Shown here: positions 2,051-62,453 of the stretch, piece by piece
Layout of the letters: every line of letters begins with the position of its first letter
Numbering within the stretch: the first letter of the stretch is position 1
Assembly: GCA_024636955.1 (NCBI GenBank)
Contig: JAGXGB010000048.1
Location: 124,001 to 188,000 of the forward strand
Length of the DNA stretch: 64,000 nucleotides
Source of the DNA: Bacteroidales bacterium
Lineage (GTDB): Bacteria; Bacteroidota; Bacteroidia; Bacteroidales; Lentimicrobiaceae
Reading direction: 5' to 3'
The notes under the pieces: model-generated
What the model saw: the letters and a program-made list of their open reading frames with translations, nothing else
The model's database searches: none
Told to the model about the DNA's origin: nothing
Made by a program: the position numbers and the translations under genes

Positions 2051-2358
2051 TACTGTCTTAAATATAATTCATGGTAAGAGTTCTCTTTGATAATATACTG
2101 TCTTCTATTTATTTAAGGCAAGAATTCTCTTTTAAGATATACTGTCTTCTATTTATTCAAGATAAGAATTTGCTATTAAGGTGTACTGTCTTCTATTAAT
2201 TCAAGGCAAGAAATTGCTATAAGATTTACTGTCTTCTATTAATTCAAGGCAAGAATTTGCTTTTAAGATTTACTGTCTTCTATTAATTCAAGGCAAGAAT
2301 TCGCTTTTAAGATGTACTGTCTTCTATTAATTCAATGCAAGAATTTGCTTTTAAGATG
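2051..2358. repeat. 44-bp direct repeat, seven copies
   Basis: Seven head-to-tail units begin with TACTGTCTT at 2051, 2096, 2140, 2184, 2227, 2271 and 2315, so the period is 43-45 bp. The consensus continues with CTATTAATTCAAGGCAAGAA and then TTTGCTTTTAAGAT. The right-hand copies are the most alike and the leftmost is the most diverged. The array fills almost the entire 418-bp gap between rpsA and rnz and stops about 20 bp before the rnz start. I see no ORF, stem or transposon feature in it. Confidence 0.9.
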
Positions 2359-2379
2359 TAACTATTAAATTTTAAACCA

Positions 2380-3294
2380 ATGAAGGAATTTTCTGTAACC
2401 GTGCTTGGTAGCAGCGCTGCAGTTGCAACAGATGACAGGAATTTAACTTCGCACTTGATCAATCACTGCAACAGTTTGTTTCTGATTGATTGTGGCGAAG
2501 GAACTCAATTCAGATTGCGTGAGTTAAGGGTTAGGACTAACAGGATAAAGAATATTTTTATTAGCCATTTGCATGGTGACCATTTTTTTGGATTGATCGG
2601 ACTGTTATCAACCATGCACCTCATGCGCAGAACAGAAGAGATTAAGGTGTATGGCCCTCCTTTACTTGAAGATATCATCAGACTTCAACTCAAAGCATCT
2701 GAAACTTCATTGTCCTACAGTCTGATATTTATAGAGACACAATCGGAAGGTGAAGAGGTAATTTATGATGATGGCAGACTTACCGTAAGTTCAATCCCAC
2801 TAAAACACCGCATACCAACCACGGGGTTTATCTTCAGGGAGAAATTACAACCCAGGCATATAAATAAAGAAGCCGTTGATAGGTTTGGTGTGCCAATTAT
2901 ATTTTATTCGTCTTTAACAAAGGGAATGGACTTTATTGCTGATGATGGTGAGATTATCCCTAATGGAGTACTTACAAACCCACCTGATATTCCACGCACT
3001 TATGCTTTTATCTCTGATACAGTTTATAATGAAGATATTGTTGATAGTATAATGGGTTGCGATTTACTTTATCATGAGTCGACATTCAGTCATGATTTAC
3101 AACATGCGGCACACGATAAGATGCATTCCACAAATGTGCAGGCAGCTACAATTGCAAAGCTTGCAGGAGCTAAAAGGCTTATGCTGGGGCACTTCTCAGC
3201 CAGGTATGATGATTTGAGTGCTATGCTGAGCGAGGCTAAAAAAACTTTCAATGAAACAATAGTTGCTGAAGAAGGTGTTGCAATATATATTTAA
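2380..3294 (+). CDS. rnz: Ribonuclease Z (tRNA 3' endonuclease)
   Basis: This is a metallo-beta-lactamase-fold endonuclease that cuts tRNA precursors 3' of the discriminator base. The zinc motif HxHxDH is at residues 63-68 (SHLHGDH), with the supporting histidines later in KHRIPTTG, FISDT and LGHFSARY. The length of 304 residues is normal for the short bacterial enzyme. It fits the local genome: of the three tRNA genes in this window two do not encode CCA, so 3' trimming followed by CCA addition is needed. The start is an ATG without an evident ribosome binding site. Confidence 0.96.
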   Translation: MKEFSVTVLGSSAAVATDDRNLTSHLINHCNSLFLIDCGEGTQFRLRELRVRTNRIKNIFISHLHGDHFFGLIGLLSTMHLMRRTEEIKVYGPPLLEDIIRLQLKASETSLSYSLIFIETQSEGEEVIYDDGRLTVSSIPLKHRIPTTGFIFREKLQPRHINKEAVDRFGVPIIFYSSLTKGMDFIADDGEIIPNGVLTNPPDIPRTYAFISDTVYNEDIVDSIMGCDLLYHESTFSHDLQHAAHDKMHSTNVQAATIAKLAGAKRLMLGHFSARYDDLSAMLSEAKKTFNETIVAEEGVAIYI

Positions 3295-3338
3295 TCTTCA
3301 ACTTAACTAAGCCCCGTGCTTTGTATATCTACCAAACC

Positions 3339-3404
3339 AGACTCTATTTAATACAATGCCATATTCTATACAATACAATACCACGCTCTATTTAATAGTT
3401 AATA
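3339..3404. repeat. 22-bp direct repeat, three copies
   Basis: Three adjacent degenerate 22-bp units start at 3339, 3361 and 3383 (core CTCTATTTAATACAATGCC), 45 bp after the rnz stop. Nothing else is visible in the rnz-histidine kinase gap except a nine-base duplication (AGATGATT) near 3411-3428. Confidence 0.7.
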
Positions 3405-5263: not shown

Positions 5264-5424
5264 CTGTTAAGATTTGGAAACCGATTAGTCATTATTTACG
5301 ATCTCAGTAAAATTATAAAATTATAAACATTACAGAGTATCATTCAAATATTTTTAATAACAAAATCAGTGTTAGTAACTGGTGTTTTGAATCCATTCTT
5401 AAAAATCCATTTATAACCTCTATG

Positions 5425-5456
5425 TTGTCATGTATCTATATTGTCATGTATCTATA
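5425..5456. repeat. 16-bp duplication spanning the tcdA stop codon
   Basis: TTGTCATGTATCTATA occurs twice in perfect tandem (5425-5440, 5441-5456). On the minus strand each unit reads as the last codons of tcdA, Asn-Ile-Asp-Thr-stop, so the downstream copy repeats the gene end including TGA. A third, decayed unit may follow (AACATAG). Confidence 0.85.
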
Positions 5457-6181
5457 TTATCACGAGACATAATGTCGCGAATAACCACTGAGGCACAATA
5501 GCATCCGAAAATGGCCGGCATATATGAGATAGTTCCAACAGTTGATTTCTTATTCATTTCTCCTTCAAGGGGTGCAATAGCATCACGGGACACCACTTCA
5601 GGAGAATAGACTGCCTTAAACCCTTTCCAAATACCTAGTTTGTGCAGCCGTTTACGCATGTAGTATGCAAGTTTACAGTTATAAGTATCATCGATATCAC
5701 TTACCGTTACAAGTGATGGATCAACTTTCCCACCTGAACCCATTGAACTAACAAGCGGAATACCTGCTTTAACTGTGTGATATATCAGGTATACTTTGGG
5801 TGAAAGCGTATCAATAGCATCTATTACATAGTCATAGCCATGTTGAATGATGTCGATCATTCGTTGATCTTTAATATACTCCTGAATGATCGTAAGATTG
5901 ATATCCGGATTTATATCCCGCAATCTGTTTCCTACAACAACGGCCTTGTACGACTCATGCGTGCTTACTAAAGCAGGCAGTTGTCGATTACGATTGGTTT
6001 CATGAATAGTATCACCATCCACTATTGTCAAACTTCCTACACCTGCCCTTGCCAGTTGTTCAGCAGCATAAGAGCCTACACCTCCAAGTCCGCATACTAA
6101 AACATGTGCATTCGCTAATTTCTGGATTTTCTCTTTTCCTGCTAAAAGAACAGTTCTTTCCTGCCAATGTGGTATCTCCAT
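5444..6181 (-). CDS. tcdA: tRNA threonylcarbamoyladenosine dehydratase (TcdA/CsdL, ThiF-like)
   Basis: This is an E1-like ATP-dependent enzyme that cyclises t6A37 of ANN-decoding tRNAs to ct6A. The nucleotide-binding GLGGVGSYAAEQLARAG is at about residues 31-47, followed by IVDGDTIHETNRNRQL and the DAIDTLSPK segment typical of the YgdL/TcdA branch rather than ThiF or MoeB. The 245-residue length is normal. The C-terminus lies within a 16-bp tandem duplication. It stands alone between two arrays of short repeats, with no neighbouring csd/suf gene. Confidence 0.93.
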   Translation of the reverse strand: MEIPHWQERTVLLAGKEKIQKLANAHVLVCGLGGVGSYAAEQLARAGVGSLTIVDGDTIHETNRNRQLPALVSTHESYKAVVVGNRLRDINPDINLTIIQEYIKDQRMIDIIQHGYDYVIDAIDTLSPKVYLIYHTVKAGIPLVSSMGSGGKVDPSLVTVSDIDDTYNCKLAYYMRKRLHKLGIWKGFKAVYSPEVVSRDAIAPLEGEMNKKSTVGTISYMPAIFGCYCASVVIRDIMSRDNIDT

Positions 6182-6216
6182 TTACATCATCTTATACTTA
6201 TACATCTTCTTATCCT

Positions 6217-6288
6217 GGTATACCTTAATACTCTATTACACCTTAATATTTTGGTAAAACTTAAAATTTTAGTAAACCTTATTATTAC
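6217..6288. repeat. 18-bp degenerate direct repeat, four copies
   Basis: Four 18-bp units start at 6217, 6235, 6253 and 6271 with the pattern (G/A)GTA(A/T)ACCTTAATATTTT. They sit between the tcdA start and the 3' end of the FAD/Fe-S dehydrogenase gene. Confidence 0.65.
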
Positions 6289-6342
6289 TCCAGTCTGCCA
6301 CACTATTCTATGACTTCGTTAGATTTATGGTATGTTTTATTC

Positions 6343-9276
6343 CTATTTTTGCTGCAATGATTCCCAAAGGATTTCAATTGGGTGTAATGCATCTCTGCCG
6401 GTGCCATCTTTTATTTGATGACGGCAGCTTGTTCCTGGTGCAGCAATGGTTACATCAATACTTGTTGACCTCACTTCCGGAAAAAGTATTAATTCGCCAA
6501 TCTTCATTGAAACATCATAATGCTCCGTTTCAAATCCAAATGAGCCAGCCATACCACAACAGCCTGATTTAATTTCTTCAACCTGATAACCTTTAGGCAA
6601 TGATAGCATTTGTTTTGTAGAAGCTGTTGAGGCAAGTGCTTTTTGATGGCAATGCCCATGAAGCTTTATCTTTCTGGGGATGCCTTTAAAGCTTTCGCTG
6701 GAAATTCGTCCAGCCGCAACTTCACGCATAATGAAGTCGTCAAACAGATAAACATTTCCAGCTAATTGCTTTGCTTTTTCTTTTGTTTCTCCCATTGTTA
6801 AGTCAATATACTCATCCTTAAATGTGAGTATAGCCGATGGTTCAATGCCAATAAGTGGTGACTCACTGGTGATTACTGATGAGAGTATTTCAACATTATA
6901 ATTTGCAAGTTTTTTAGCTATTCTTACTAATCCTTTGCTCAGGAAGGTACGTCCACTTTCCTTATGATCAGGAATTTCAACCTTATAGCCCAGTTTATTC
7001 AGAATTTTGACGGCACTGATACCAATTGCAACATCATTATAATTGGTAAACTCGTCAGCAAATAAATATACAATACGTCCGGATGATTGATGCTTTCGAT
7101 GTTTTGCGAACCAACTCTTTAAGGTAGTTTTATATAATAGAGGCAATGAGCGCTTATGAGAGAATCCAATGGCTTTTTGAAAAACACCTGAAAGAAAATT
7201 GTTCTTTACAAACCAATTGTAGAAAGAAGGCATCAAAGCTCCAATTCTATTGAAAGCAGTTATGTTTGCAATAATCCATGATCTAAGTGGTGTTCCGTTT
7301 GCATCATAATAATGCTGCAAAAACTCAGCTTTGTATTTTGCCATATCCACATTTGACGGACACTCGGCTTTGCACCCTTTACATGAGATACATAAATCCA
7401 TTACCTCAAGTATTTCCTTATGGTCAAATGGGTTTTTCTTATCGCTTCGGGTAAGCAATTCACGTAAAATATTTGCACGAGCCCTTGTTGTATCTCTTTC
7501 ATCACGAGTAGCCTGATAGCTTGGGCACATAGTTCCGGCAAATTGCTCTGATTTCCTGCAATCACCTGAACCATTGCACTGTTCTGCTGCCCTCACAATA
7601 CCCATGTTTTCAGAAAAATCAAACACAGTTTCTATTTCACGTGTTTTTTGTCCGGCTTCATACCTCAAAGAAGAATTCATTGCCGGTGTTTCAGTTATCT
7701 TGCCTGCATTAAAAATACCTTTTGGATCAAAAGTATGCTTAACGCCTTTCAGTAATTGATAAACATGATCGCCCAGCATTAGCGGTATGAATTCACCCCT
7801 CAACCGGCCATCACCATGTTCTCCACTTAATGAGCCGCGGTATTTTTTGACAAGCCGGGCTGATTCAAGGGCAACAGTATGAAATAGCTCAATATCTTTG
7901 GGATCTTTCAAATCAAGCATTGGACGTAAGTGGAGTTCTCCGGTAGCAATATGCGCATAATAAACACATTCTAGGTCAAGCTTAATAAGCATCGCCTTGA
8001 ACTCTTCCATATACAATGGCAATGCTTCGGGCAGTACTGCAGTGTCTTCAATTACAGCAACAGGTTTTTTATCGCCTTTAATATTTGATAAAAGCCCAAG
8101 CCCGGCTTTCCTAAGAGCCCAAACTTTATTGATATCAGTGCCAAAGATTACTGGGAAATGGTAACCATAACCATTAATGAGCATACTCTGCTCAAGAGAA
8201 TTTGCAGCTTCAAGAATTTCCTCTTTGGTATTGAAAGCAAATTCCACAACCAATATAGCAGCAGGCTCACCACTGATGAAAAAGCGGTTCTTCCTTTGTT
8301 CGATATTGTCTTTTGTCCGTTCAACTATGAACTGATCAATCAATTCAATTGCTACCGGTTTATGTTTTAACGCTATAAGATTTGCTTTAAAGGCTTCCTC
8401 TAAAGAGCGGCAGTGTATACAAACAAGTGCCTTTTCTCTGGGTGGGAGAGGAACAAGATTTAGTTTTATTTCAGTAGAGAATGCAAGAGTACCTTCTGAA
8501 CCTGCAAGTATTTTACAAAGGTTGAAGTGTTTATTAGATTCGCTAAATGGCTCTGAATCAAGTAACAAATCAAGGGCATATCCAGTGTTTCTTCTTTCCA
8601 GACGTGGATCAGGGTAGTTGTTAATAATCTCTGCTTTATTTTGTTGATCAATTAGAATATCCCGAAAGTGAGCGTATATTTTACCTTCCAGCGTATCCTG
8701 TTCACATTTCATCTTTAATTCCTCAGTGCCCAAAGATTTAAATGTTGTCTTTGAGCCATCACTGAGGAGTGCTGTGATTTCGAGTGTATGATCACGTGTG
8801 CTTCCATATACCAGTGAGTGTGAGCCGCAGGCATTATTGCCAACCATCCCGCCTATCATACATCTATTAGAAGTGGACGTTTCAGGTCCGAAGAATAGAC
8901 CAGTTGGTAGAAGTGCGTTGTTGAGTTCATCAAGAACAACGCCCGGCTCCACTCTTACCCAATGCTCATCCTGATTAATTTCAAGAATGCGGTTCATATA
9001 CTTCGACACATCAACAATAATTCCGTTACCAACTACCTGACCTGCCAATGAAGTACCTGCAGTTCTGGGGATTAATGTAACCTTCATTTTATTGGCAAAG
9101 TGGATCAGTGTGATAATATCTGACTCATCCTTAGGGCGGGCAACGGCTATAGGTAATTCCCTATATGCAGATGCATCAGTTGCATACAGTATTCTCATGG
9201 TTTCCCCTATGAAAATATCTCCTTTGAGTTTATTCGATAGTTCGTTCCACTTATTTACCGGTATAACAGTTGGCAT
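6343..9276 (-). CDS. FAD/Fe-S 2-hydroxyacid dehydrogenase (YdiJ/GlcD-GlpC fusion type)
   Basis: This 977-residue fusion is organised like YdiJ, the D-2-hydroxyglutarate dehydrogenase, and related D-lactate/glycolate oxidoreductases. A FAD-binding-4 domain lies at roughly 35-180 (PRTAGTSLAGQ, GGMVGNNACGSHS), and a FAD-oxidase C-terminal domain at about 250-530 (SGEHGDGRLRGEF). An iron-sulfur region follows (CNGSGDC; CISCKGCKAECPSNVD). It ends in a CCG/heterodisulfide-reductase-like domain (HGHCHQKAL, SGCCGMAGSFG). Electrons would pass from the flavin through the clusters to the quinone pool or another carrier. The DUF1338 gene just upstream on the same strand makes D-2-hydroxyglutarate an attractive substrate. 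A terminator separates the two genes, so this one probably has its own promoter. Substrate specificity cannot be read from the sequence. Confidence 0.88.
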   Translation of the reverse strand: MPTVIPVNKWNELSNKLKGDIFIGETMRILYATDASAYRELPIAVARPKDESDIITLIHFANKMKVTLIPRTAGTSLAGQVVGNGIIVDVSKYMNRILEINQDEHWVRVEPGVVLDELNNALLPTGLFFGPETSTSNRCMIGGMVGNNACGSHSLVYGSTRDHTLEITALLSDGSKTTFKSLGTEELKMKCEQDTLEGKIYAHFRDILIDQQNKAEIINNYPDPRLERRNTGYALDLLLDSEPFSESNKHFNLCKILAGSEGTLAFSTEIKLNLVPLPPREKALVCIHCRSLEEAFKANLIALKHKPVAIELIDQFIVERTKDNIEQRKNRFFISGEPAAILVVEFAFNTKEEILEAANSLEQSMLINGYGYHFPVIFGTDINKVWALRKAGLGLLSNIKGDKKPVAVIEDTAVLPEALPLYMEEFKAMLIKLDLECVYYAHIATGELHLRPMLDLKDPKDIELFHTVALESARLVKKYRGSLSGEHGDGRLRGEFIPLMLGDHVYQLLKGVKHTFDPKGIFNAGKITETPAMNSSLRYEAGQKTREIETVFDFSENMGIVRAAEQCNGSGDCRKSEQFAGTMCPSYQATRDERDTTRARANILRELLTRSDKKNPFDHKEILEVMDLCISCKGCKAECPSNVDMAKYKAEFLQHYYDANGTPLRSWIIANITAFNRIGALMPSFYNWFVKNNFLSGVFQKAIGFSHKRSLPLLYKTTLKSWFAKHRKHQSSGRIVYLFADEFTNYNDVAIGISAVKILNKLGYKVEIPDHKESGRTFLSKGLVRIAKKLANYNVEILSSVITSESPLIGIEPSAILTFKDEYIDLTMGETKEKAKQLAGNVYLFDDFIMREVAAGRISSESFKGIPRKIKLHGHCHQKALASTASTKQMLSLPKGYQVEEIKSGCCGMAGSFGFETEHYDVSMKIGELILFPEVRSTSIDVTIAAPGTSCRHQIKDGTGRDALHPIEILWESLQQK

Positions 9277-9337
9277 AATAGTATAAAATGAGTAATGGCA
9301 AAAACTGATCCAAAGTTAGGTAAATTAAACACTACAG

Positions 9338-9373
9338 AAAAAACCGCATTCCCTGATCTAAGGAAATGCGGTC
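9338..9373 (-). terminator. rho-independent terminator of the lplA-DUF1338 unit
   Basis: Read on the minus strand, ACCGCATTTCC pairs with GGAATGCGGT (one bulged base) and is followed by six T residues. It lies about 120 bp after the DUF1338 stop and 62 bp before the dehydrogenase start. Confidence 0.7.
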
Positions 9374-9407
9374 ACTTTTATGTGAAAACAGGAATGTTTA
9401 ATTATTA

Positions 9408-9480
9408 TTACAAAATGCAGTCTATTATTGAAAACTGGAAAGCTTTATTAATGTTACAAAATGCAGACGTTTATTGATAA
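9408..9480. repeat. 46-bp-period direct repeat, two copies
   Basis: TTACAAAATGCAG recurs at 9408 and 9454, each followed by a similar TTTATTGA-AAC stretch. The pair lies directly downstream (minus strand) of the DUF1338 gene. Confidence 0.6.
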
Positions 9481-9490
9481 CAGTGATCTC

Positions 9491-10303
9491 TTAATTCCCT
9501 TTATAAAAGTTTGTGCTTTCAAATATCTTATCAGCTGACTTTGCAATAAAGCCTGAATAAAGCTTCCCATCGGTATCAGGGTATCTTATAGCAAATTCAT
9601 AGTAGCATGAAGGTACTTCGTAAGTTCCTTCAAGAAATTGAACAGGCAATTTCCCCGCCATGGTACTCGATTGTTCCAATAGTTCTTCCGGAGTGCCTTT
9701 GACCCGGCCGCCTGAATCATTAATCCGGAAGCCGTTGTCTTCAACAAACTTATTGACCGCTTCAACGCTGGTAAATTTCTTTAATCCGTTAATGCTTACT
9801 GTGAAGTGGTTTGCCCTGAAGCCGTATACATAAACCCATGCTGCATATTCTGATTCGTCTCTTAGTTTATTATACACCTCGTATGAAGGCGTTCCCCAGA
9901 GGTTACCCCTGAAAATCAAATCTCCTTTTCCGTGCAATTCAGCAGGTATCTTATCAAGGATATCTTTCACAGTCTCCTGGACAAATGGTGATAGTTCCTC
10001 AGTCCTCAACTCCGAAATAAAGACTCTGGGAGCGTCTCGGAATTCCTTATGCTCATAATGACGCGCATTCAGCTTCTTGTCTTCGAAATTATACGATTGT
10101 TTGTATTCGTACCCTGCTTCAATGAACAGCTGTGCCATCACATCAATATTCACCCTTGAGTCATTGAAAGTCCTGAATGCAATATGATCATTCAGCACTT
10201 CTTCCCCCTGAGCAATGAATAAGTCATATACTTTCTTTGCTGATGGATTCTGGGTAATATAATCTGACCACAGTTTATCGAAAATCTCTTGTGCCTGCTT
10301 CAT
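9491..10303 (-). CDS. DUF1338 protein, 2-oxoadipate dioxygenase/decarboxylase family
   Basis: DUF1338 proteins include HglS, the iron-dependent enzyme of bacterial D-lysine breakdown that converts 2-oxoadipate to D-2-hydroxyglutarate. This 270-residue version belongs to the short form. The expected ligand set is visible: H40 with R44 (HxxxR in NDHIAFRTF), H166 (RANHFTVSI) and E236 (YYEFAIRY). These would correspond to the two histidines and the glutamate that hold iron and the substrate-binding arginine. It lies 21 bp downstream of lplA, and the adjacent downstream gene encodes a YdiJ-type dehydrogenase able in principle to oxidise D-2-hydroxyglutarate. The family is clear; the substrate is inferred. 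Confidence 0.85.
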   Translation of the reverse strand: MKQAQEIFDKLWSDYITQNPSAKKVYDLFIAQGEEVLNDHIAFRTFNDSRVNIDVMAQLFIEAGYEYKQSYNFEDKKLNARHYEHKEFRDAPRVFISELRTEELSPFVQETVKDILDKIPAELHGKGDLIFRGNLWGTPSYEVYNKLRDESEYAAWVYVYGFRANHFTVSINGLKKFTSVEAVNKFVEDNGFRINDSGGRVKGTPEELLEQSSTMAGKLPVQFLEGTYEVPSCYYEFAIRYPDTDGKLYSGFIAKSADKIFESTNFYKGN

Positions 10304-18717: not shown

Positions 18718-20271
18718 TTAATTTACAACAGAACTCTTTTCAAATTTAGGCACCGTTGCTGCCTTCTTCTTTTTCCTTCTGTTAGATTTCCAGTACATTA
18801 AAAAGCCGGTTATAAGGATAACCAAAACTGTAATGCCCATTAACGGAACATACAAGATGTAAAAATCACCTACTAAAAAAGCAAAGATTCTTCCGGTATG
18901 AACTTCCAATGCCAGATTCCACCATGAGATAGGTTGTGTGGATATATTATCAGACATAGTTGGTTTGGTTTGTGGCTTTATGTTCATCCATCCTGAACCA
19001 TAATCAAGGATTGCCATCAGGGTACTATTCCTCATGTAAACCCCTGCAACAGCTACTGCACCAAAGGGATTACCTTCGCTTTGTCCCACAACAGGCATAC
19101 CGGTTATCATATCAGTTGATAGACCACTTTGCGTATTCCATCGGTAAATTCCGCTAAACGAAGCTACAAGGTATTCATTATCATTCAGCTGTTCAAAAGC
19201 ATTAATTCCCATAACACTTACTGGTGGTTGTGACCTGAATGTTCTGGTATTTTCATGGCCTTCCCTTATTGAATACTCAATGAATCCCTCACTTGTGGAA
19301 ATAATATAAGCATTTAATGTGGTGTCAAAAACAACATCCCTTAATTTATCGTGCCATACATTCTCATGGGCTAGTAGTGTACCCGGAATAGCAGAGATTT
19401 GTTTATTTGCTATAGGTATTAATAGGGGAGGCCTTAGGAACATACCTGTTATCACGGTTATAAGTAATACTGGTATACCGTAAACCCCAATTAAAGTATG
19501 CCAGTTAATGAGCTTTCTGTTTGTCTTTTGAAACCTCTTTTTAAGGTTATCTGACAGCTTTTTGGCAAACTTAGGGAGGAATGTATAAAAGAAACCGGTT
19601 AAGGTCATAAAGATCACCGCAAGTCCAACCAGGTCTACTATGAGCTTTCCGGTCAGACCAAATATCTCACCACTATGTACCACCCACAAGGTGCGAAACA
19701 TTCCAACCTTCCCATCATGACCGGTAGGAGCAGGTATATGTATTGTTTGAGATATCTGATTGCCCGCCAGAGGCATTTTGTACATTTCTGACCTGGTAAG
19801 TATTATCAAGTCTCTATCTTTTTCAAGCAACTTGACTATTCTGGGACTTCCGGAAGGTAGCTTTATTTCATTCCACCTGTTTTCCTGAAGGTTAAACTCA
19901 AAGAATCCAAACAATGTACCGGCAAACAACCTATTGTTGCTGGTTTGTACCATTGTATATGTCTTGCGATGGTCAATGCCTTTGGGGAATCCTTTATTAA
20001 AATCAAAGAATTCTGTTAAGTGCTTGTCTGTTTTCCAGACTCCTACATTACCATAGGCCAGTACTGAAGAATCATGAAGTGGTAAGAATCCTTTAACCGA
20101 TGCAAGATTCCAATTTTTATATTGATAATCACCTGGCATTAAGAATCGTGGGAAATCAAGTGAGGCAAATATCGACCTGTGGTTCATTACAATGCCTGAA
20201 ACGCAAAACAAGAGAATAAAAAGGCCAACTATTAAAGATGGCCATTTATGGTATTTTCGAAGTTTCTTCAT
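18718..20271 (-). CDS. PepSY-associated transmembrane protein
   Basis: This 517-residue inner-membrane protein has the layout of PepSY_TM proteins. The first helix follows KKLRKYHKWPSLIVGLF (HKW/H near the membrane face). Two or three central helices carry the conserved H in INWHTLIGVYGIPVLL. A last helix pair is near residues 450-495, and the tail is basic (SNRRKKKKA). Relatives are linked to iron or flavin/haem redox at the membrane, such as siderophore reductases, but the function here is open. The large extracytoplasmic loops contain propeller-like repeats. It is 48 bp downstream of the cupin gene on the same strand. Confidence 0.75.
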   Translation of the reverse strand: MKKLRKYHKWPSLIVGLFILLFCVSGIVMNHRSIFASLDFPRFLMPGDYQYKNWNLASVKGFLPLHDSSVLAYGNVGVWKTDKHLTEFFDFNKGFPKGIDHRKTYTMVQTSNNRLFAGTLFGFFEFNLQENRWNEIKLPSGSPRIVKLLEKDRDLIILTRSEMYKMPLAGNQISQTIHIPAPTGHDGKVGMFRTLWVVHSGEIFGLTGKLIVDLVGLAVIFMTLTGFFYTFLPKFAKKLSDNLKKRFQKTNRKLINWHTLIGVYGIPVLLITVITGMFLRPPLLIPIANKQISAIPGTLLAHENVWHDKLRDVVFDTTLNAYIISTSEGFIEYSIREGHENTRTFRSQPPVSVMGINAFEQLNDNEYLVASFSGIYRWNTQSGLSTDMITGMPVVGQSEGNPFGAVAVAGVYMRNSTLMAILDYGSGWMNIKPQTKPTMSDNISTQPISWWNLALEVHTGRIFAFLVGDFYILYVPLMGITVLVILITGFLMYWKSNRRKKKKAATVPKFEKSSVVN

Positions 20272-20276
20272 TCAAG

Positions 20277-20332
20277 TAGGCTAATGAGAAATTAATTTAT
20301 TCACTTAGGTAATGAGAGATTATTTTTTAATC
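20277..20332. repeat. 28-bp duplication over the cupin gene stop
   Basis: On the minus strand the last codons of the cupin gene, its TAA and the following TCTCTCATTACCTAAGTGA are repeated once, in diverged form (TTTCTCATTAGCCTACTTGA), about 29 bp downstream. About 23 of 28 positions agree by eye. The second copy ends just before the PepSY protein start. Confidence 0.55.
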
Positions 20333-20649: not shown

Positions 20650-20690
20650 ATCTCTTTATTTTAAAATTAATTAATCTATCATCTTGTACA

Positions 20691-20742
20691 GACGCGATTT
20701 ATCGCGTCTCTATCATTACGTAGAGACGCGATAAATCGCGTC
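20691..20742. repeat. REP-like palindromic element
   Basis: Two perfect 22-nt inverted arms (20691-20712 and 20721-20742) are separated by eight bases. Each arm is itself a palindrome (GACGCGAT-tt-ATCGCGTC), so either a cruciform or two small hairpins can form. The TAGAGAC/GTCTCTA edges are shared with the element at 43060. Confidence 0.85.
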
Positions 20743-20750
20743 CCTACATT

Positions 20751-22078: not shown

Positions 22079-22498
22079 TCGGTATTTCGGAATTTGAATG
22101 CGCAAATATACTACATTCTTCTTATTGGTAACTATAGAACCTGAATAATTTTCACTCTATTCTATAAATATTAGTGTATCGTGTTATAATTCAGGACCTT
22201 AAAAATATTAGTGATCTTGAAGAAGGTTTTAACCCTGTGAGTGCATCAAATTGCTGGCAGTAGCACATTCCATTCAAATGGAAGCTATAACCATTAATGA
22301 TTCATTTCTCTCAACCATGTTACAACCTTATAGCAACTTTGTATAAACCTTGTATAAACAATGTATAATATACAAGGTTGAAATAACCATAACATAATGG
22401 TGGTACATGGTAACTAAAAATGAATATACAATGGAACTGAGTAGATAAAAACAACAGAGCGATGTTCTTTAGTACTTAGAAAGAAATGTCTTAAAATT
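22079..22498. other. Gap between the two Rrf2 genes with an inverted repeat
   Basis: I see no gene in these 420 bp. A perfect 11-nt inverted repeat AACCTTGTATA / TATACAAGGTT (22346-22356, 22369-22379, 12-bp spacer) contains a further TGTATA half-site and could be an operator. A short palindrome CCATTCAAATGG occurs near 22269. The rest is AT-rich with no clear ORF. Confidence 0.5.
22103..22110 (-). promoter_or_regulatory. -7 promoter element of the Rrf2 operon
   Basis: On the minus strand the sequence is TATATTTG, an exact TAnnTTTG match, 25 bp before the GTG start chosen for the Rrf2 gene. Confidence 0.5.
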
Positions 22499-25618: not shown

Positions 25619-25649
25619 TTAATTGTAAGAGCAGCGGTAAAATCTGTTT

Positions 25650-25787
25650 AGTTCAAGTAGCTTGTTAGTTCAACAAATGGTGTTGGTTCAAGTAACTTGT
25701 TAGTTCAAGTAAACTTGTTGGTTCAAGTAACTGGATTTCAAGTAACTGGTATTTCAAGCAATTGTTATTTCAAGTAACTTGTAGTTT
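25650..25787. repeat. 16-bp direct repeat seeded at the TerB-like gene end
   Basis: On the minus strand, the last codons of the TerB-like gene (Leu-Gln-Val-Thr-stop, CTACAAGTTACTTGAA) are followed by about five further 15-18-bp copies ending in ACTTGAA or GCTTGAA, running away from the gene. Each copy therefore repeats a TGA stop. Confidence 0.85.
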
Positions 25788-26337: not shown

Positions 26338-26500
26338 TACACATTGTGCAATTTAAATGTAGAACTGTGCAATTTCAATACGTATAGCTTCAATCCTATG
26401 CATTTCTGTATTTCAATGAATATTCTGTATCCTGTGAATGTTCTGTATTCCCGTCATGTTCTGTATTCCTGCGCATATTCTATATTCCCCTGTGTATAAA
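26338..26500. repeat. Two adjoining short-repeat blocks in a 422-bp gap
   Basis: There is no gene between 26142 and 26563. A 22-bp pair with core TGTGCAATTT lies at about 26345-26382. About five 18-19-bp units with core ATATTCTGTATTCC(C/T)G lie at about 26400-26492. Confidence 0.7.
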
Positions 26501-30418: not shown

Positions 30419-30481
30419 AGGATGAAATTATTAGATTTCAGGATGTAATTGATAGAATAGAGGATGAAATTAATAGACGGC
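30419..30481. repeat. 21-bp direct repeat, three copies, last one is the folD start
   Basis: Three exact 21-bp registers (30419, 30440, 30461) begin AGGATGAAATTA, AGGATGTAATTG and AGGATGAAATTA. The third holds the ATG of folD at 30464. The array begins at the base after the ffh stop and makes up the whole intergenic gap. Unit 1 also carries an in-frame ATG (30422) that would encode a short decoy peptide ending at a TAA in unit 2. Confidence 0.9.
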
Positions 30482-31352: not shown

Positions 31353-32324
31353 ATGGGTTTCCCTTTTTATCTTCGGCCGGTATTGTACATTCTATTACCG
31401 GCCTTGCTTTTTCCTGCCATAAGCTGGTCTCAACAAGAGGGATGCACTGATACATTAGCATCAAATTTTGACGTCAATGCTGTTATTAATGATGGCTCAT
31501 GTATGTATCCTGATATTACTATTAACTTCCGGAAGGCTGTTTCGAGCATGCCTGTAACTATCAGCGAAAGCTCAGGCTTGATCTGGTGGCGCAATAGTTA
31601 CTGGACTCACAATGATAATGGCGGATCTAATGAAATATACTGCCTGGATTCAATTACAGGAAATGTTAAGCAAATAATCACGTTGAAAGATGCTACTAAT
31701 GTTGACTGGGAGGATATGACCCATGACCAGGACTATATCTACGTTGGAGATTTTGGCAATAATTATGGCAACCGATCTGACCTTTGTGTATATATGGTGG
31801 CAAAGAATGATATCCCATCTAACGGTGATACAATTGTTGCCTGTGAGAAACTATCATACAGCTATGCTGACCAGAGCGATTTCACAATCAGAAACCTAAA
31901 GAATGATTACGATTGTGAAGCAATGGTAAGTTTAGGAGATAGTTTATACCTTTTTACTAAAAATTGGGCTACTTTTACTACCAGGCTATATGCTTTGCCT
32001 AAAAGACCAGGTAGCTATTATATATACCCCATTGACGAGTATAATATTAAAGGACTCGTTACAGGAGCATCAATTGATGTTGAAAGCCAGTGGGTGGTAT
32101 TATGCGGATATCATAATTACATTCCGTTTATTGTGATTTTAAGTGATTTTTGGCGTAATGATTTCTTTGGCGGAAACAAACGAAGGATTAATTTTAAAAA
32201 TTATTTTGCAACACAAACTGAAGCTATTGCATATACAGGTAACAACACTTACGTTATTTCATCTGAGAGAACTATAATAAGAAAAGCTAAAATTTACAAG
32301 ATTGATTTGAAGGAGATTCAGTAA
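31353..32324 (+). CDS. Secreted protein with Gly-Cys-Thr-Asp motif and propeller-like domain
   Basis: This 323-residue protein has a signal peptide (hydrophobic LYILLPALLFPAISW, cleavage near SWSQQ). The mature start carries the GCTDTLASNFDVNA-NDGSC segment, a short repeat common in Bacteroidota surface proteins, with two cysteines that can bridge. The remainder is beta-rich and resembles a six-bladed propeller (WEDMTHDQDYIYVGDFGNN). No sorting domain is present, so it may be periplasmic. It starts ten bp after folD. Its last 20 bp, including TAA, form the first unit of a 43-44-bp repeat array. Confidence 0.6.
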   Translation: MGFPFYLRPVLYILLPALLFPAISWSQQEGCTDTLASNFDVNAVINDGSCMYPDITINFRKAVSSMPVTISESSGLIWWRNSYWTHNDNGGSNEIYCLDSITGNVKQIITLKDATNVDWEDMTHDQDYIYVGDFGNNYGNRSDLCVYMVAKNDIPSNGDTIVACEKLSYSYADQSDFTIRNLKNDYDCEAMVSLGDSLYLFTKNWATFTTRLYALPKRPGSYYIYPIDEYNIKGLVTGASIDVESQWVVLCGYHNYIPFIVILSDFWRNDFFGGNKRRINFKNYFATQTEAIAYTGNNTYVISSERTIIRKAKIYKIDLKEIQ

Positions 32325-32478
32325 GAATGTATTGAATTAATCAGTTTAAAAGCGAAAGATCAATCAAGTCTGTATAAAGTTAAAATGCTAAATTTGAAAG
32401 AGATTCAGTAATACTGCATAATATTTGTAAGCCGCATTTGAAAGAGAATCAATAAAGTTGCGTTAATTATATTTAACA
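32305..32478. repeat. 43-45-bp direct repeat seeded at a stop codon, four copies
   Basis: ATTTGAAGGAGATTCAGTAA (32305, the end of the upstream gene with its TAA) recurs as ATTTGAAAGAGATTCAGTAA at 32392 and ATTTGAAAGAGAATCAATAA at 32436. A decayed copy sits at 32348 (GCGAAAGATCAATCAAGT). The array fills the gap up to the start of the OmpA-family gene. Confidence 0.75.
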
Positions 32479-37253: not shown

Positions 37254-37979
37254 ATGGATCTGTTATTAATCAGCAATTCAACAAATCCCGGTGAAGATTA
37301 CCTGGGATGGCCTCAACAGGAAATTAAGGATTATCTTGATAAGAGAAATATAAAGCGTGTGCTTTTCATTCCCTTTGCCGGTGTTACTTTTAGTTACGAC
37401 ACTTATGAGGAAAAGGTAAACAAAGTATTCAGCAGTTTGGGTTTTGAAATATATTCAGTACACAATCAGCCCGATCCTTTGAAAGCAGTTGAAGAAGCTG
37501 AAGCAATTGCAGTAGGAGGGGGGAATACTTTCCACCTCGTAAGGGAAATGCAGAAGCTTGGACTTATGGATGCAATCCGTGAAAAGGTAAAAAGCGGAAC
37601 ACCATACATGGGATGGAGCGCCGGATCAAATGTTGCTTGTCCCACTTTACGCACAACCAATGATATGCCCATTGTTGAGCCTGAAAGTTTCAATTGCATG
37701 GGTCTGATTCCTTTTCAGATAAATCCTCATTACCTTGATGCCCATCCAACAAATCATGGTGGCGAAACAAGAGAACAAAGAATAGAAGAGTTTTTGGTTG
37801 CCAATCCAAATATGTACGTTGCCGGACTAAGAGAAGCAACCTTGTTACTATTAGAAAATGGAAAACTATCGTTAAGAGGCAGGCATCCTATGAGAGTTTT
37901 TAAGAATGGAAAGCAGCCACTTGAACTGGAACCAGGATCAGATCTGCAGTTTCTGTTACAATTAGAATCAATTGCTTAA
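37254..37979 (+). CDS. pepE: Dipeptidase E (peptidase family S51)
   Basis: The enzyme hydrolyses Asp-X dipeptides in the cytoplasm. The class I glutamine-amidotransferase-like fold is evident: AVGGGNTFHL (about 87-96), the nucleophile elbow GWSAGSN with Ser122, and the histidine-containing FQINPHYLDAHP around 155-166. The length of 241 is normal. The stop codon lies in the first unit of a perfect-register 22-bp repeat array. Confidence 0.93.
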   Translation: MDLLLISNSTNPGEDYLGWPQQEIKDYLDKRNIKRVLFIPFAGVTFSYDTYEEKVNKVFSSLGFEIYSVHNQPDPLKAVEEAEAIAVGGGNTFHLVREMQKLGLMDAIREKVKSGTPYMGWSAGSNVACPTLRTTNDMPIVEPESFNCMGLIPFQINPHYLDAHPTNHGGETREQRIEEFLVANPNMYVAGLREATLLLLENGKLSLRGRHPMRVFKNGKQPLELEPGSDLQFLLQLESIA

Positions 37980-38062
37980 ATGACCGAATGCAAATGTTTA
38001 AGTGACTGAAAGACATAGTTTAAGTGACTGAATGTGATAGTTTAAGTGACTGAATGTCATAG
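37975..38062. repeat. 22-bp direct repeat over the pepE stop, four copies
   Basis: Units start at 37975, 37997, 38019 and 38041 in exact 22-bp register. The first contains the pepE TAA. The others read TTTAAGTGACTGAATG with only one or two changes. Each later unit contains TAA, TGA and TGA in the three forward frames, so it stops translation in any frame. Confidence 0.9.
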
Positions 38063-38157
38063 TTGTTAGGTTTTAACTAATTAGTATAATGATGTTTAAG
38101 AAATCAACCACATATATCTGTAAAACTCATTTAAATTAACATAAAAACTTATCAATT

Positions 38158-46550: not shown

Positions 46551-46791
46551 ATGCCCACTTACCAATTTCAATTCCTTACCATCTGTTGAAACCAGACCAT
46601 CCTTCACAGTCAGTTTCAGCCCGTTACAAATCAATTACATTTACAAGTCTCACTCGTCCTAAAAGTCCTACTGGCCATACTTTATATTAGTGATCCGATA
46701 ATAACATCACAGCCATTATTAATCTGCCATAAAAAGGCAATCATTGGGATTATGAATTGAGTAATACCCTACCCTAAAAATATAGTTACAG

Positions 46792-46848
46792 TACGGTTAG
46801 ACTACGGTTACTCTACCTTCAGGGTAGAGTAACCGTAGTCTAACCGTA
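46792..46848. repeat. Perfect 26-bp-arm hairpin upstream of the P-type ATPase gene
   Basis: Two identical-complement arms of 26 nt (46792-46817 and 46823-46848) flank a five-base loop TTCAG. The arm itself repeats GGTTAGACTAC / GGTTACTCTAC, and a further GTAGTCTAAA copy follows. There is no T-run, so it is not a standard terminator. The remaining 46551-47004 gap shows no gene. Confidence 0.85.
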
Positions 46849-46933
46849 GTCTAAATGTACTGTAACTGTAACCTAATATACAACTTATCTGAATTTCTAC
46901 CATCATTTATTCAATTTTCATTAACTCATTACG

Positions 46934-52636: not shown

Positions 52637-54766
52637 TTATTGCTCTTGTTGCAGCACAACTGGCTGAATATCACCCTGAGAGATATGCATACTGCTGATC
52701 TCCAGGTCACCGCCTTCAGGATATAGCGTAATATAGTTATTATCAACCCGGTACCATTTATCCTGCACACTAATCCTGAGTAAGTAATCAACAGTTTCTT
52801 CGCTTTCAATGCCCTTCATGACGATACCACCACTTTTCATACCATCCTTGCCGTAATTGATAAATACTTTGGGTGTATACTCAGTGGTTCTTCTTGCCTT
52901 AATAAGAATATAATTATTCTTCCTTAAGCGCATATCAATCGGGTCAAACCTGAATCTTTGCTCATAACCATTAAGAATGATAATCGGTTCGGTAACTAAG
53001 CCAACTATAGAATTATCCTCCATTAACTTCTTGATCTTGCTGATCATAAGGGTAGGGTAGGACTCCTCAGGACGCATGGTTAAAGCTTTTTCAAACTCTT
53101 CGAGGGCACGGTCAAATACGTTTGTCTGGTATGCCAGATCACCGGCTGCAACAAATTTATTGTAGGCATCAAGATTATTCTTCATGCGCTCAAGCACAAT
53201 ATTGTTGATCTGTATGAGCCGATCACGCGGATAATCCTCCATTGGTTTTAGCTCAACAGCCTTTTCAAACATCTTCATTGCTGATGGGAAGTCTTCCTCA
53301 GTATAAAGCTTGTTCCCATTTTCAATTGCTTCATTGTATTCCCTGTCGGCAAGAGAAGTTCTTTCATACTCCAATTGCCTTATTCTTTCTTCCTCAATCC
53401 TTGTAGCTTCAGCAAGTGCTTCCTGTTCACGAAGCTGTTCGGCCTTTAGTTTTTCCTGTTCACGAAGCTGTTCGGCCTTTAAGTTTTCCTGCGCGCGAAG
53501 CTGTTCATCTCTTTCAGCATCTTCTTTTGCTTTGAGTTCTGCCAACTCGGCAAGTCTGAGCTCCTCAGCCTTGCTTTGAGCTGCCAGTGCTGCCTCTTTT
53601 GCCGCGTTCTCCTCTGCCAGTGCTGCCTCATTTGCTGCAGTCTCCTCTGCAAGCTGCAGACTATCAGCAATACGTTTCTCTTCGGCCAGCTTGGCTAACC
53701 GTAGTTCCTCAGCCTGAGTTTGCGCTGTCAGTGCTGCCTGATTAGCAGCAGTCTCTTCTGCAAGTTGCAGACTATCGGCTGCACGTTTCTCTTTAGCCTG
53801 CCTTGCTGCAAGTTCATCAGCCTCACGTGTTGCTTTTTCTGTAGCTTCTTCTTCAGCGCGAAGCTGTGCAAGTTTTGCTTCCTCTTCAACCCGAAGTTTT
53901 TCAAGTCTTGCCTCTTCTTCAGCCCGAAGCAGAGCAAATTTTGCTTCCTCCTCCTGACGTTTCTTAAGCTCGGCTTCATTGGCAATTGCGTTGGTTGCCT
54001 GAGTTTTTATAGCTTCATTCACCCTTTCGAGCATACTCCCCGGGTAAGTTTCTGCGGGTTTTAGCTTAGCAGCCTGCTGATATTTAAGCTTTGCCTGGGC
54101 AAAGTCGCGGTTCATATAAGCTTCATCAGCCAGGGCAACTTCCGCGTTATAACTATCATCAAGGGCTTTCTGTGCTGCAAGTATAGCATCAATTTCCTTT
54201 ATCTTATTCTTTGGGTATGCTTCCTCAGGGTTGAGCAATGCAGCCTGCTCATATTTCGGTTTCGCGACTTCATAGTTCTTTTCACTTAAATCCTTATCAG
54301 CGGCAGCGATTAACGTTTCATATTCTTTTAACCGTTGATTTTTCTCGACATCTAATTTGTCAACTTTACCAAGCTTCTCTCTCACTGATCTATCTTCAGG
54401 CTTTATTAATAGTGCAGCTTCATACTTAGCTTTTGCTTCTCTATAACTGCCTGAGGCTGACAGCCTATCGCCTGATGCAACGGCATCAGCAAAATCAGTT
54501 TCATCCTTTGGATCAATGTAAACCTTACGTATCTGAGCAAGTTTATCCTTGGCAAACCGGGAGGAAGGGTCTATTGCCAATGCCTTCTGGTATTCAGCCT
54601 TTGCTTTTGCATAGTCTTTATTCTGTAGAAATTCCTCCCCACGGGTAATTGATTCCTCAAATTGTAACAGTTTTACCTTATCAATTGACTGAGCATGAGC
54701 ATGATACGATGTTCCCATGATCACAAGCAGGAGTAGATATATATAATTAAAGTTCAAATTTGTCAT
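52637..54766 (-). CDS. Periplasmic TPR and coiled-coil protein
   Basis: This 709-residue protein has a signal peptide (LLLLVIMGTSYHAHAQ). Four TPR-like pairs lie at about 30-260 (YAKAKAEYQKALAIDP, YREAKAKYEAALLIKP, FAQAKLKYQQAAKLKP). An extended Glu/Ala/Leu coiled coil spans about 265-450 and contains internal repeats (ADSLQLAEETAAN twice; LKAEQLREQE twice, encoded by 33-bp DNA repeats). Two more TPRs (FPSAMKMFEKAVELKP, FDRALEEFEKALTMRP) and a C-terminal beta domain follow. It probably is a scaffold at the envelope. It is 55 bp after the LolD-like gene and may be cotranscribed. Confidence 0.75.
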   Translation of the reverse strand: MTNLNFNYIYLLLLVIMGTSYHAHAQSIDKVKLLQFEESITRGEEFLQNKDYAKAKAEYQKALAIDPSSRFAKDKLAQIRKVYIDPKDETDFADAVASGDRLSASGSYREAKAKYEAALLIKPEDRSVREKLGKVDKLDVEKNQRLKEYETLIAAADKDLSEKNYEVAKPKYEQAALLNPEEAYPKNKIKEIDAILAAQKALDDSYNAEVALADEAYMNRDFAQAKLKYQQAAKLKPAETYPGSMLERVNEAIKTQATNAIANEAELKKRQEEEAKFALLRAEEEARLEKLRVEEEAKLAQLRAEEEATEKATREADELAARQAKEKRAADSLQLAEETAANQAALTAQTQAEELRLAKLAEEKRIADSLQLAEETAANEAALAEENAAKEAALAAQSKAEELRLAELAELKAKEDAERDEQLRAQENLKAEQLREQEKLKAEQLREQEALAEATRIEEERIRQLEYERTSLADREYNEAIENGNKLYTEEDFPSAMKMFEKAVELKPMEDYPRDRLIQINNIVLERMKNNLDAYNKFVAAGDLAYQTNVFDRALEEFEKALTMRPEESYPTLMISKIKKLMEDNSIVGLVTEPIIILNGYEQRFRFDPIDMRLRKNNYILIKARRTTEYTPKVFINYGKDGMKSGGIVMKGIESEETVDYLLRISVQDKWYRVDNNYITLYPEGGDLEISSMHISQGDIQPVVLQQEQ

Positions 54767-60433: not shown

Positions 60434-61139
60434 CTTCCGGTGATATAACAAACAAATAGCGAAAAAAGGGCACAGCGCAAATGCATCTAATATTGACACC
60501 TGCTTTTTGTGCTAAGGCTGAAATCTCATTCTTTTTAAATCCCCTGAGCACTGATAATGGCCCATCGTGCTTAGCCAATGATGTTCCATTAAGTAAGCGG
60601 GTGATGGCAATTGCACCATAATATGCCACTTTACTTCTCTTAAGATCGTTAACTATCAATATTGAGTTTAACTGTTTTGCGGTCTTGAAAAGTGAAATTA
60701 TCTCGTGATCTTCAAGATGGTGGGTAAACAGGGCGCAATGAATAATGTCAATCTTCTGATCACTTTCGTTAAGAAAGGATTCGTAATCTGTGTAAAATAC
60801 CTTTATCTGTTTGATGTAGCTGCTACGTTTTTGCAAATACTCAACAGCAACAGGATTATTATCTACCCCTGTTAATTCTATGTCCAAATTATTCTTCGCG
60901 GCCCATTTAGCTGCTTGTATCATGAACTCGCCTCCTCCGCATCCCAAATCAACAAGGTTGTAGTGCTTGCCTGATTCCAGTTTCAATTTTTCCAGCTGCT
61001 TTAAAGTAAACCAAATACTGCCGGTTAACCTGTTATAGGTATCAAGTTCCTTTAAGTTTCGAATTGTTTCAAAAGCCGGAACATCATTTGAATCTATGAG
61101 TTCCTTGCTGTTTGATCGTTGATCGAATTTTATTCTCAT
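60417..61139 (-). CDS. SAM-dependent methyltransferase
   Basis: This 240-residue class I methyltransferase has motif I VDLGCGGGEF (about 63-72), the acidic strand ELTGVDNNPVA, and FTHHLEDHEI with INDLKRSKVAYY downstream. This THH/NDLxR pattern is typical of methyltransferases that accompany type III polyketide synthases. The start at 61139 lies 90 bp after the synthase stop, and the stop overlaps the hydroxylase start. The expected role is methylation of the polyketide phenol or its pyrone. Confidence 0.87.
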   Translation of the reverse strand: MRIKFDQRSNSKELIDSNDVPAFETIRNLKELDTYNRLTGSIWFTLKQLEKLKLESGKHYNLVDLGCGGGEFMIQAAKWAAKNNLDIELTGVDNNPVAVEYLQKRSSYIKQIKVFYTDYESFLNESDQKIDIIHCALFTHHLEDHEIISLFKTAKQLNSILIVNDLKRSKVAYYGAIAITRLLNGTSLAKHDGPLSVLRGFKKNEISALAQKAGVNIRCICAVPFFRYLFVISPEDDEKN

Positions 61140-61229
61140 TGCCTCTTACTTGCCTGGGCGCTGTTTGCATAGTTATTATTTAACGCCTCTTGATTACGCA
61201 TCTTGCTCGCCTATATGCTGAATCCATTA

Positions 61230-62453
61230 CTAGGACTGAACACCTCTTGTTTTCATAAGTGCTGTTTCAACACTTATACCTGGACCAAAGCCCATTGCAA
61301 TTATTTGTGAACCTGCCTCAACGTTCTTTAACATTTCTTCAAGTACAAATAATATGGTAACTGACGACATATTTCCGTGTTGTTGCAGTATTTGATACGA
61401 CTCCGCAATATCACTACTGCTAAAATTCATTGCTTTACAGAATTCATCCAGAATTTTCTTGCCTCCCGGATGAATAGCCCACTTAAGATCCAGGGTATTA
61501 TCAAGTTTGAAAGATTTCGAAATTTCTTTGAAAATATAATTGACGTTCTTGCCTATGAATTCAGGTATAGAAGAGCTCAGCACCATTTCAAAGTTTACAG
61601 GATTTATATTCCAGGCCATTAAATCAGCTCCCTCTTTCAGGGTAAGGGTATGAAACCCTTTTAACTCAATACCGCTTAAATTGTGTTGGTCAGCATATTC
61701 GGCCGAGGTGATTACCATAGCAGCAGCGCCATCAGCAAAAAGCGTGTTGGCAAGCAAGTTGTCATTGTTATCCTTAGGTTGGAAGTGCAGTGTGCAAAGC
61801 TCCACGCAAACAACAACGACTAATGCATTCTTATCGTTTCGCTGTATAAGATCAGCCATACGTATAGCAGCAAAAGAGGCGTTACAGCCCATAAAGTTTA
61901 TAGCTGTATGGAAGGTGTTGGCGGGAAGATTATAATGATTGATCAGCTCAATGCCTAATCCCGGCGCATACATTCCGGTGCATGTAACAGTTATAATATG
62001 CGTGATTTTTTCTAATACATTTGGATCATTAAGCTTTTTGAGGGCATTGTCAATTGCGATGGATGCTAAAGGTAGCACCTTGTGTTTGTATACATTCATG
62101 CGTTTTTCCACATCCGGAACAACACCATTCATAAATAACTCTGGCTTTTCACAGTTAATGCTAAAATCAGGAATTACTGATTGCCGGTAGTGAATGCCGC
62201 TTTGTTTAGAGAGTATGTTTAATTTCCTTGCTGCGGTATTATCAGCATACATCTTCCCCATAAACAGCGCAACTTCATCCTGCCTGAAGGAATAAGATGC
62301 TGACTGGGTTCCTATTGATGCAATTACACTAGTAAACCGCTGACCTGCTAATGCAATATCATTTTTTGAACGTTTTCCTAATGCTGCAATTGCACTTTTT
62401 GGACGGTCACCTGTTGACGTAATTACTCTTTTGATCTTAGTATTTGTTGACAT
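61230..62453 (-). CDS. Type III polyketide synthase (chalcone/stilbene synthase-like)
   Basis: This homodimeric condensing enzyme builds pyrones, resorcinols or related rings from acyl-CoA and malonyl-CoA. With the start at 62453 (407 residues) the triad is C190 (MGCNASFA), H328 (AIHPGGKK) and N361 (HGNMSSVT). The end is GFGPGISVET. The start codon overlaps the UbiA stop (TAATG), which decides against the longer frame to 62492. Residues 8-51 are four in-frame 11-residue repeats (KRVITSTGDRP, KSAIAALGKRS, KNDIALAGQRF, TSVIASIGTQS); only the last is the family's normal first strand. It is the core of the operon. Confidence 0.95.
   Translation of the reverse strand: MSTNTKIKRVITSTGDRPKSAIAALGKRSKNDIALAGQRFTSVIASIGTQSASYSFRQDEVALFMGKMYADNTAARKLNILSKQSGIHYRQSVIPDFSINCEKPELFMNGVVPDVEKRMNVYKHKVLPLASIAIDNALKKLNDPNVLEKITHIITVTCTGMYAPGLGIELINHYNLPANTFHTAINFMGCNASFAAIRMADLIQRNDKNALVVVVCVELCTLHFQPKDNNDNLLANTLFADGAAAMVITSAEYADQHNLSGIELKGFHTLTLKEGADLMAWNINPVNFEMVLSSSIPEFIGKNVNYIFKEISKSFKLDNTLDLKWAIHPGGKKILDEFCKAMNFSSSDIAESYQILQQHGNMSSVTILFVLEEMLKNVEAGSQIIAMGFGPGISVETALMKTRGVQS
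62301..62432. repeat. 33-bp in-frame direct repeat, four copies, in the PKS gene start
   Basis: Four 33-bp units (62432-62400, 62399-62367, 62366-62334, 62333-62301, minus strand) share the pattern AAAAGTGTAATTGCATCAAT then GG and CGTTCA. The last unit encodes the conserved first beta strand; the others are diverged copies placed in front of it. Confidence 0.85.

Follow-up and report, generated by a model that had tools for sequence, protein, structure and literature searches.

Why should short tandem repeats, with units that are unrelated from one site to the next, lie again and again at the borders of genes? The question is raised by a 64,000-nucleotide stretch of DNA (the window; positions 124,001 to 188,000 of contig JAGXGB010000048.1) from a Bacteroidales bacterium of the Lentimicrobiaceae (assembly GCA_024636955.1). 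An earlier note, made from the letters alone, had described such arrays at gene ends and gene starts and attributed them to a mutational process active at gene ends. The analysis reported here points elsewhere: the arrays are probably the product of a tandem-duplication process that is specific to this lineage, acts genome-wide with a helix-phased step size, and is filtered by selection. Lineage-specific duplication combined with selection would explain the placement of the arrays, their relation to the reading frame, the comparison with relatives and their density.

Tandem arrays in the window and in the genome

The window comes from a draft genome of 3.22 Mb (83 contigs, 93% complete), of which 1.79 Mb (56%) was sampled. 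This sample is non-random, being biased toward long contigs and contig starts; it consists of a first sample of 1.10 Mb and of later stretches drawn separately as a second sample. Eighteen same-genus genomes were listed, 11 of which provided a relatives' sample of 0.74 Mb. The FolD protein is 70–77% identical in the 14 of these 18 genomes where it was found, while its nearest named matches, in Bacteroidales and other Bacteroidota assemblies, reach at most 65% identity. Arrays were defined by Tandem Repeats Finder (TRF; score of at least 50, period of at least 9 base pairs (bp)), and genes by a custom caller based on open reading frames (ORFs) and hexamers, the stop positions of which are firm and the start positions less firm.

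Head-to-tail repetition on this scale is not expected by chance: 115 intergenic arrays were present in the first 1.10 Mb, where three first-order Markov shuffles gave 6.3 on average. Of the 296 arrays in the 1.79 Mb, 67 are contained in genes and six lie for the most part inside them; noncoding arrays comprise 145 with units of 12–60 bp and 20 with an internal 7-bp repeat, and the remainder are 50 with 9–11-bp units, six that resemble repetitive extragenic palindromic (REP) elements and two with longer units. The main finding concerns mainly the 145. TRF reports 18 arrays in the window, and the principal ones, with one read by eye, are as follows (G008 is a relative of the same genus).

2051–2360, + strand: 44-bp unit, seven degenerate copies, between an S1-domain gene and a beta-lactamase-fold gene (TRF); syntenic G008 region without an array
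3336–3397, no strand assigned: 22-bp unit, 2.8 copies, in a convergent intergenic region (TRF)
5419–5462, − strand: 16-bp unit, 2.8 copies, spanning the stop (5444) of a ThiF-family gene (TRF)
6216–6286, − strand: 18/36-bp unit array downstream of gene 6343–9276 (TRF)
9378–9483, − strand: 46-bp unit, 2.3 copies, between genes 6343–9276 and 9491–10303 (TRF); absent from G008
20270–20326, − strand: 28–29-bp unit, two copies, spanning the stop (20320) of a cupin gene; a single, stop-containing copy in G008
25648–25786, − strand: 16–18-bp unit, ∼8 copies, the first containing the stop (25770) of a TerB-like gene (TRF)
26404–26488, − strand: 18–19-bp unit, 4.6 copies, intergenic (TRF); G008 without an array
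30419–30477, + strand: 21-bp unit, 2.8 copies, the final unit being the folD start (TRF); a single copy in G008
32300–32470, + strand: copies 43 or 86 bp apart, the first containing the stop of gene 31353–32324; read by eye, missed by TRF
37965–38064 (TRF 37976–38064), + strand: 22-bp unit, four copies, the first containing the stop (37979) of a peptidase S51 gene
53420–53947, − strand: 33-bp in-frame coding repeats inside gene 52637–54766 (TRF)

The array at 9378 looks coding only by virtue of a doubtful small ORF (9295–9477) proposed by the caller. Seven of the eight places at which the earlier note had named arrays do carry them, counting the one at 32324 that lies outside the TRF list. The eighth, a supposed 33-bp duplication at the gene start at 62453, dissolves on inspection: TRF finds none there at a score of at least 30, and the best self-match at a spacing of 30–36 bp is 58%. 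It is also true that, at the sites listed, the gene end with its stop codon forms the first unit; this follows automatically, because in any array that straddles the end of a gene the first in-frame stop is where translation ends.

Origin by duplication at some sites, and excess over relatives

Thirty intergenic regions of the window are syntenic with G008. Twelve arrays lie in or border these regions here, against one in G008, and that one is of a separate, palindromic 11-bp class (see below). Some regions are much longer in this genome (290 versus 40 bp, 279 versus 30 bp, and 211 bp at the array at 3336 where the G008 genes overlap); others are longer in G008 (92 bp here versus 254, and 143 versus 536).

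Eleven window arrays were aligned to G008. Three have clear single-copy counterparts, one has a weak counterpart, and for seven, including the 22-bp unit at 37965–38064, no copy was detectable by alignment. At the sites matching 20320 and 32324 the single G008 copy includes its stop codon. Alignment scores exceed all 200 shuffles at 20270–20326 (z 4.7) and at 32300–32470 (z 6.3), and tie with the best of 200 shuffles at the folD start (z 3.8). The gene end at 32324 is now formed by the first copy, and the ancestral downstream flank has stayed with the last, as expected after tandem duplication over the stop. The G008 stop matching 25770 has one similar copy, but the match is weak (z 2.1, some shuffles being as good). 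Judged by these alignments, the arrays at 20320, 32324 and the folD start can be taken as shown to have arisen by tandem duplication in this lineage, with a weaker case at 25770. The mutational origin proposed in the earlier note is thus upheld where the relative retains one copy, and the comparison of copy number that it called for gives several copies against one at three sites, with a fourth weak and seven of 11 lacking a counterpart.

The excess is not confined to the window or to intergenic DNA. Noncoding DNA of the first sample carries 1.06 arrays per kb, 3.4-fold more than the 0.31 of the relatives' sample, and coding DNA 0.047 against 0.014; in the second sample the values are 1.06 and 0.036. 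Under a simpler ORF mask, and counting cleaned units, this genome has 6.5 arrays per 100 kb, the genus 1.2 and a set of loci mostly from other Bacteroidota 0.9. Since arrays within genes and between genes are both enriched over relatives, the process appears to be genome-wide.

Loss of a repair gene (SbcD, RecJ, MutS) was considered as a cause and gave no clear candidate. MutS and RecJ are present; SbcD was not found here (absences being weak evidence in a draft that is 93% complete), and 15 of the 18 relatives likewise score below the cut-off for it.

Reading frame

Unit lengths are divisible by three in 51 of the 67 coding arrays, but in only 13 of 50 arrays that cross a stop and two of 12 that cross a start (1.79 Mb). 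The first of these figures bears out the selection against frame-breaking events proposed in the earlier note; the second is about what is expected without constraint, and the length pattern that the note described for stop-side units is not confirmed. That start-side units are multiples of three was a small-sample impression. Almost any length is tolerated across a stop or in the spacer downstream, since the encoded protein stays the same when the copied segment covers the stop; copying across a start, or inside a gene, mostly does alter it. Peaks at 21 bp (10 arrays) and 33 bp (nine) occur among the 67 coding arrays as well, a pattern confounded by protein repeats.

Unit lengths near multiples of 11 bp

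Noncoding unit lengths in the first 1.10 Mb peak at 11, 21–22, 33 and 43–44 bp. A length test set in advance and applied to the new stretches gave a Rayleigh Z of 9.78 (n = 50) with a phase of −0.5 bp. After a cleaning step that postdates this test, and that removed units with internal 7–12-bp similarity or folding, 59 of 108 noncoding units have lengths that differ from a multiple of 11 by at most 1 bp, where ∼27% are expected; the best-fitting period is 11.0 with phase 0, and under kernel-smoothed length nulls at four bandwidths none of 20,000 draws each was as strong as the observation. In lag counts made without TRF, and repeated with a filter, the lags of 22, 33 and 44 again stand out sharply, although TRF periods are preferred because multi-copy 22-bp arrays can count at 44 or 66. 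The preference holds in convergent regions (where 10 of 22 units are exactly 22 bp), in two-copy arrays and in high-identity arrays, and more weakly in arrays that cross a stop. The relatives' arrays (14, Z 0.13) are too few for a comparison of length preference.

Negatively supercoiled bacterial DNA has an in vivo helical repeat of ∼11 bp per turn, according to PMC8501960. We infer that the length preference points to a helix-sensing step, the main rival being that the 22-, 33- and 44-bp arrays are functional, as phased binding sites or curved DNA, with lengths kept by selection and not set by mutation. Whole-turn spacing is indeed typical of phased protein sites, and the separate 11-bp palindrome class of this genome, with its recurrent families, resembles a dedicated element. 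The arrays themselves argue otherwise. The 24 cleaned 22-bp units resemble one another no more than shuffled units do and share no motif (best match mean 14.2 of 22, versus 13.6 in shuffles), which agrees with the earlier description of units that vary from site to site; a motif common to loci, as binding sites would have, appears only in the separate 9–11-bp class. Folding is no higher than in matched controls (median z −0.32 versus −0.37, n = 145 each), many arrays sit in convergent regions without promoters, and the window's gene-edge arrays lack an array counterpart in the syntenic G008 regions. A functional origin of the lengths therefore seems rather unlikely.

Two narrower functional roles can be set aside. 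Selection of lengths by promoter helical phase is not the cause, as the preference is found in convergent regions and in stop-crossing arrays too. A role of gene-edge arrays as structured RNA or terminators finds no support, their folding being no higher than in the controls.

Placement relative to stops and starts

Placement was analyzed for 167 arrays of the 1.79 Mb (unit of at least 12 bp, non-REP, less than half coding). Under random intergenic placement 22.2 of these are expected to cross a stop and 44 do so; 26.0 are expected to cross a start and eight do so, with one array crossing both. The enrichment at gene edges envisaged in the earlier note is thus real for stops and reversed for starts. 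The stop excess persists in the first 1.10 Mb when the window is left out (28 versus 13.0) and in the later stretches alone (12 versus 7.6, P 0.07), so that it is not only an effect of how the window was selected.

Such an excess would be expected if transcription-replication conflict, or slippage at terminators, created duplications at gene ends, and tandem regions, with 29 stop-crossing arrays against 16.2, fit that explanation, as does a null pooled over all regions of the first 1.10 Mb with a 100-bp start margin (17 versus 9.9, 1.7-fold, P 0.012). When arrays are instead redistributed within their own regions the excess shrinks as the starts are set aside: 38 versus 29.6 without a start margin (P 0.023), 26 versus 20.9 with a margin of 40 bp (P 0.09) and 22 versus 20.3 with one of 80 bp (P 0.36). 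Convergent regions have no excess at all (10 versus 10.1). Array coverage shows no peak at stops: it is 5.5% at 0–9 bp past the stop, climbs to a maximum of 10.9% at 50–69 bp, and is lower around starts. Coding arrays, too, are enriched over relatives, and the relatives pooled have one stop-crossing array against 3.6 expected. The placement can be read as avoidance of starts, to which a mild gene-end preference may at most be added. It requires no process tied to gene ends, and we regard one as unlikely. The hotspot proposed in the earlier note is weakened, short of full exclusion, by the pooled, margin and within-region nulls, the coverage profiles and the convergent regions. More generally, selective removal at starts can produce a genuine excess at stops.

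A probable genome-wide duplication process

The favored explanation, genome-wide duplication followed by selection, would run as follows. A short segment, mostly of 14–46 bp, would be duplicated head to tail; repeated rounds, together with point mutations, would yield two to eight degenerate copies. Selection would then leave within genes hardly any lengths but multiples of three, few arrays near starts, and almost any length at or after stops. The length preference itself would be set by the mutational step, for example by slipped or bridged strand synthesis that restarts on the same face of the helix. More tentatively, it is possible that a dedicated machinery duplicates whole turns (∼11 bp) of supercoiled DNA, such as a protein that holds two same-face sites while synthesis restarts; this would leave 22-, 33- and 44-bp arrays genome-wide and perhaps also have built the 11-bp palindromes.

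Several results, in addition to the want of a repair-gene candidate, weigh against this account. Seven of the 11 window arrays aligned have no detectable counterpart in G008. Noncoding density among the relatives spans 0 to 0.70 per kb, and the highest values (0.59–0.70) are not far below that of this genome; the coding excess rests on nine arrays in the relatives. The 11-bp signal falls to Z 1.2 when lengths of 20–23 bp are dropped, and among units of at least 25 bp (n = 47) Z is 7.5 at 11 bp and 8.6 at 10 bp, so that the period is not sharply resolved. Units of 19 bp (nine) and 35–38 bp (nine) are off phase. Lastly, given the stop excess in the pooled null and in the within-region null without a margin, a mild gene-end preference may be real.

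Separate repeat classes

Some repeats of the window, and many short-unit arrays elsewhere, belong to other classes.

20675–20750 (palindromes 20691–20742), no strand assigned: REP-like pair, two copies of the palindrome GACGCGATWWATCGCGTC (TRF)
22296–22425, no strand assigned: palindrome with 11-bp spaced repeats (AACCTTGTATA); TRF row 22324–22368, hairpin −34 kcal/mol
46785–46854, no strand assigned: inverted arms of 11-bp repeats (GTAGNSTAACC), palindrome centre 46819; one of nine loci here
L096:18014, L137:2955, L147:7483, L163:3791, L098:11974, L195:5889: examples of further 11-bp palindromes
L152:12411, L164:15721, L199:11625, L223:4691, L147:11464, L166:1023: examples of arrays with a TTGAAC/GTTCAA core
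L166:12034, L164:14108, L109:8455: heptamer-based 21-bp units

The 11-bp palindromes are ∼80–130 bp long, each arm holding 2–5 tandem 11-bp repeats. Many of the arrays with 11-bp units form the arms of such palindromes, and 27 fall into six recurrent sequence families; at least six families share this architecture. Folding is strong (median z −5.8 for 30 arrays), 21 of 33 centres are strong palindromes, and TAATGAATC-like sequence flanks the palindromes on the outside at 11 of 42 arms, against 5.4% of controls. One family has nine loci here and a single 3-mismatch match across 18 other genomes of the genus. No Rfam family matched the window's 11-bp palindromes. Both noncoding 11-bp arrays of the relatives' sample come from G008, with unit sequences that differ from those of this genome. 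One of G008's palindromic 11-bp arrays (L118:7398–7441) lies upstream of a gene that we take, by reading and not by search, to be Rrf2-like, as does the palindrome at ∼22300–22420 here, with another 11-bp sequence; the two may not be exactly orthologous.

Could the 22-, 33- and 44-bp units be dimers, trimers and tetramers of decayed arrays of this palindromic kind? The 11-bp step is common to both classes and some 22-bp units belong to 11-bp families. Yet the 21–22-bp units show no internal 11-bp repetition beyond that of shuffled units (lag-11 match 0.333, versus 0.327 shuffled, n = 33), and the length preference survives removal of units with internal 7–12-bp similarity of at least 0.6, which makes such a descent very unlikely.

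The window holds arrays of more than one kind, the REP-like pair at 20675–20750 and the palindrome arms at 46785–46854 and ∼22300–22420 being set apart from the rest. That the arrays in general are dispersed mobile repeats, or artefacts of an 83-contig draft assembly, is scarcely credible, even with the pair at 20675 and the family at 46785 being dispersed, given the single occurrence in the genome of the 44-bp array sequence at 2051–2360, the divergence of copies within an array, unlike assembly repeats, and the ancestral single-copy segments at some sites.

Further short-unit classes were noted. Dispersed 9–10-bp arrays with the TTGAAC/GTTCAA core number 12, and the array at 25648 has the GTTCAA core in common with them. 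Nine-bp arrays of the GTCCCACAA type occur at three loci (L107:18636, L166:17303 and L201:11367). In the heptamer class, which is distinct from the 22-bp arrays, 21-bp units consist of three 7-bp repeats (GTTCTGA, GCCCTAA, CACTAAC).

Comparison with known systems

CGTC-tagged REP elements (PMC3733652) are dispersed palindromes of 20–40 bp ending in CGTC. The paired palindromes at 20675–20750 resemble them: GACGCGATWWATCGCGTC ends in CGTC and occurs within two mismatches at nine places in the genome, mostly as close pairs (on contigs 40, 48, 56, 70 and 76), the exact core searched being 18 bp. They differ from such elements in being limited to these few places, and they are unrelated to the other gene-edge arrays. 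The Y1_Tnp transposase (PF01797) was not found in the 93%-complete draft. This transposase is REP-associated.

Direct repeats of TAACTGA and other heptamers are described from Beggiatoaceae, Cyanobacteria and a few Bacteroidetes (PMC4679880). The arrays here are likewise direct repeats between genes of a Bacteroidota-like genome, and some extend over the stops of upstream genes. In contrast, TAACTGA repeats consist of one fixed heptamer and lie mostly just upstream of starts, whereas the present units are long, site-specific and avoid starts; noncoding arrays without a 7-bp sub-repeat (145, units of 12–60 bp) far outnumber the 20 with one.

Bacterial minisatellites, or variable-number tandem repeats, which arise by slipped-strand replication, share with these arrays degenerate head-to-tail copies in excess of shuffled intergenic DNA, an intergenic bias, filtering by frame within genes and some single-copy ancestors. 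What differs is the genome-wide excess in one lineage and the unit lengths near multiples of 11 bp, a combination for which no description was found in searches of open-access literature listings. Slippage is usually seen as a single-strand loop without helical preference. If duplication lengths do follow the helix, then it could be tested whether the step is set by a bound protein or by supercoiling, and the lengths would serve as a natural record of DNA twist inside cells.

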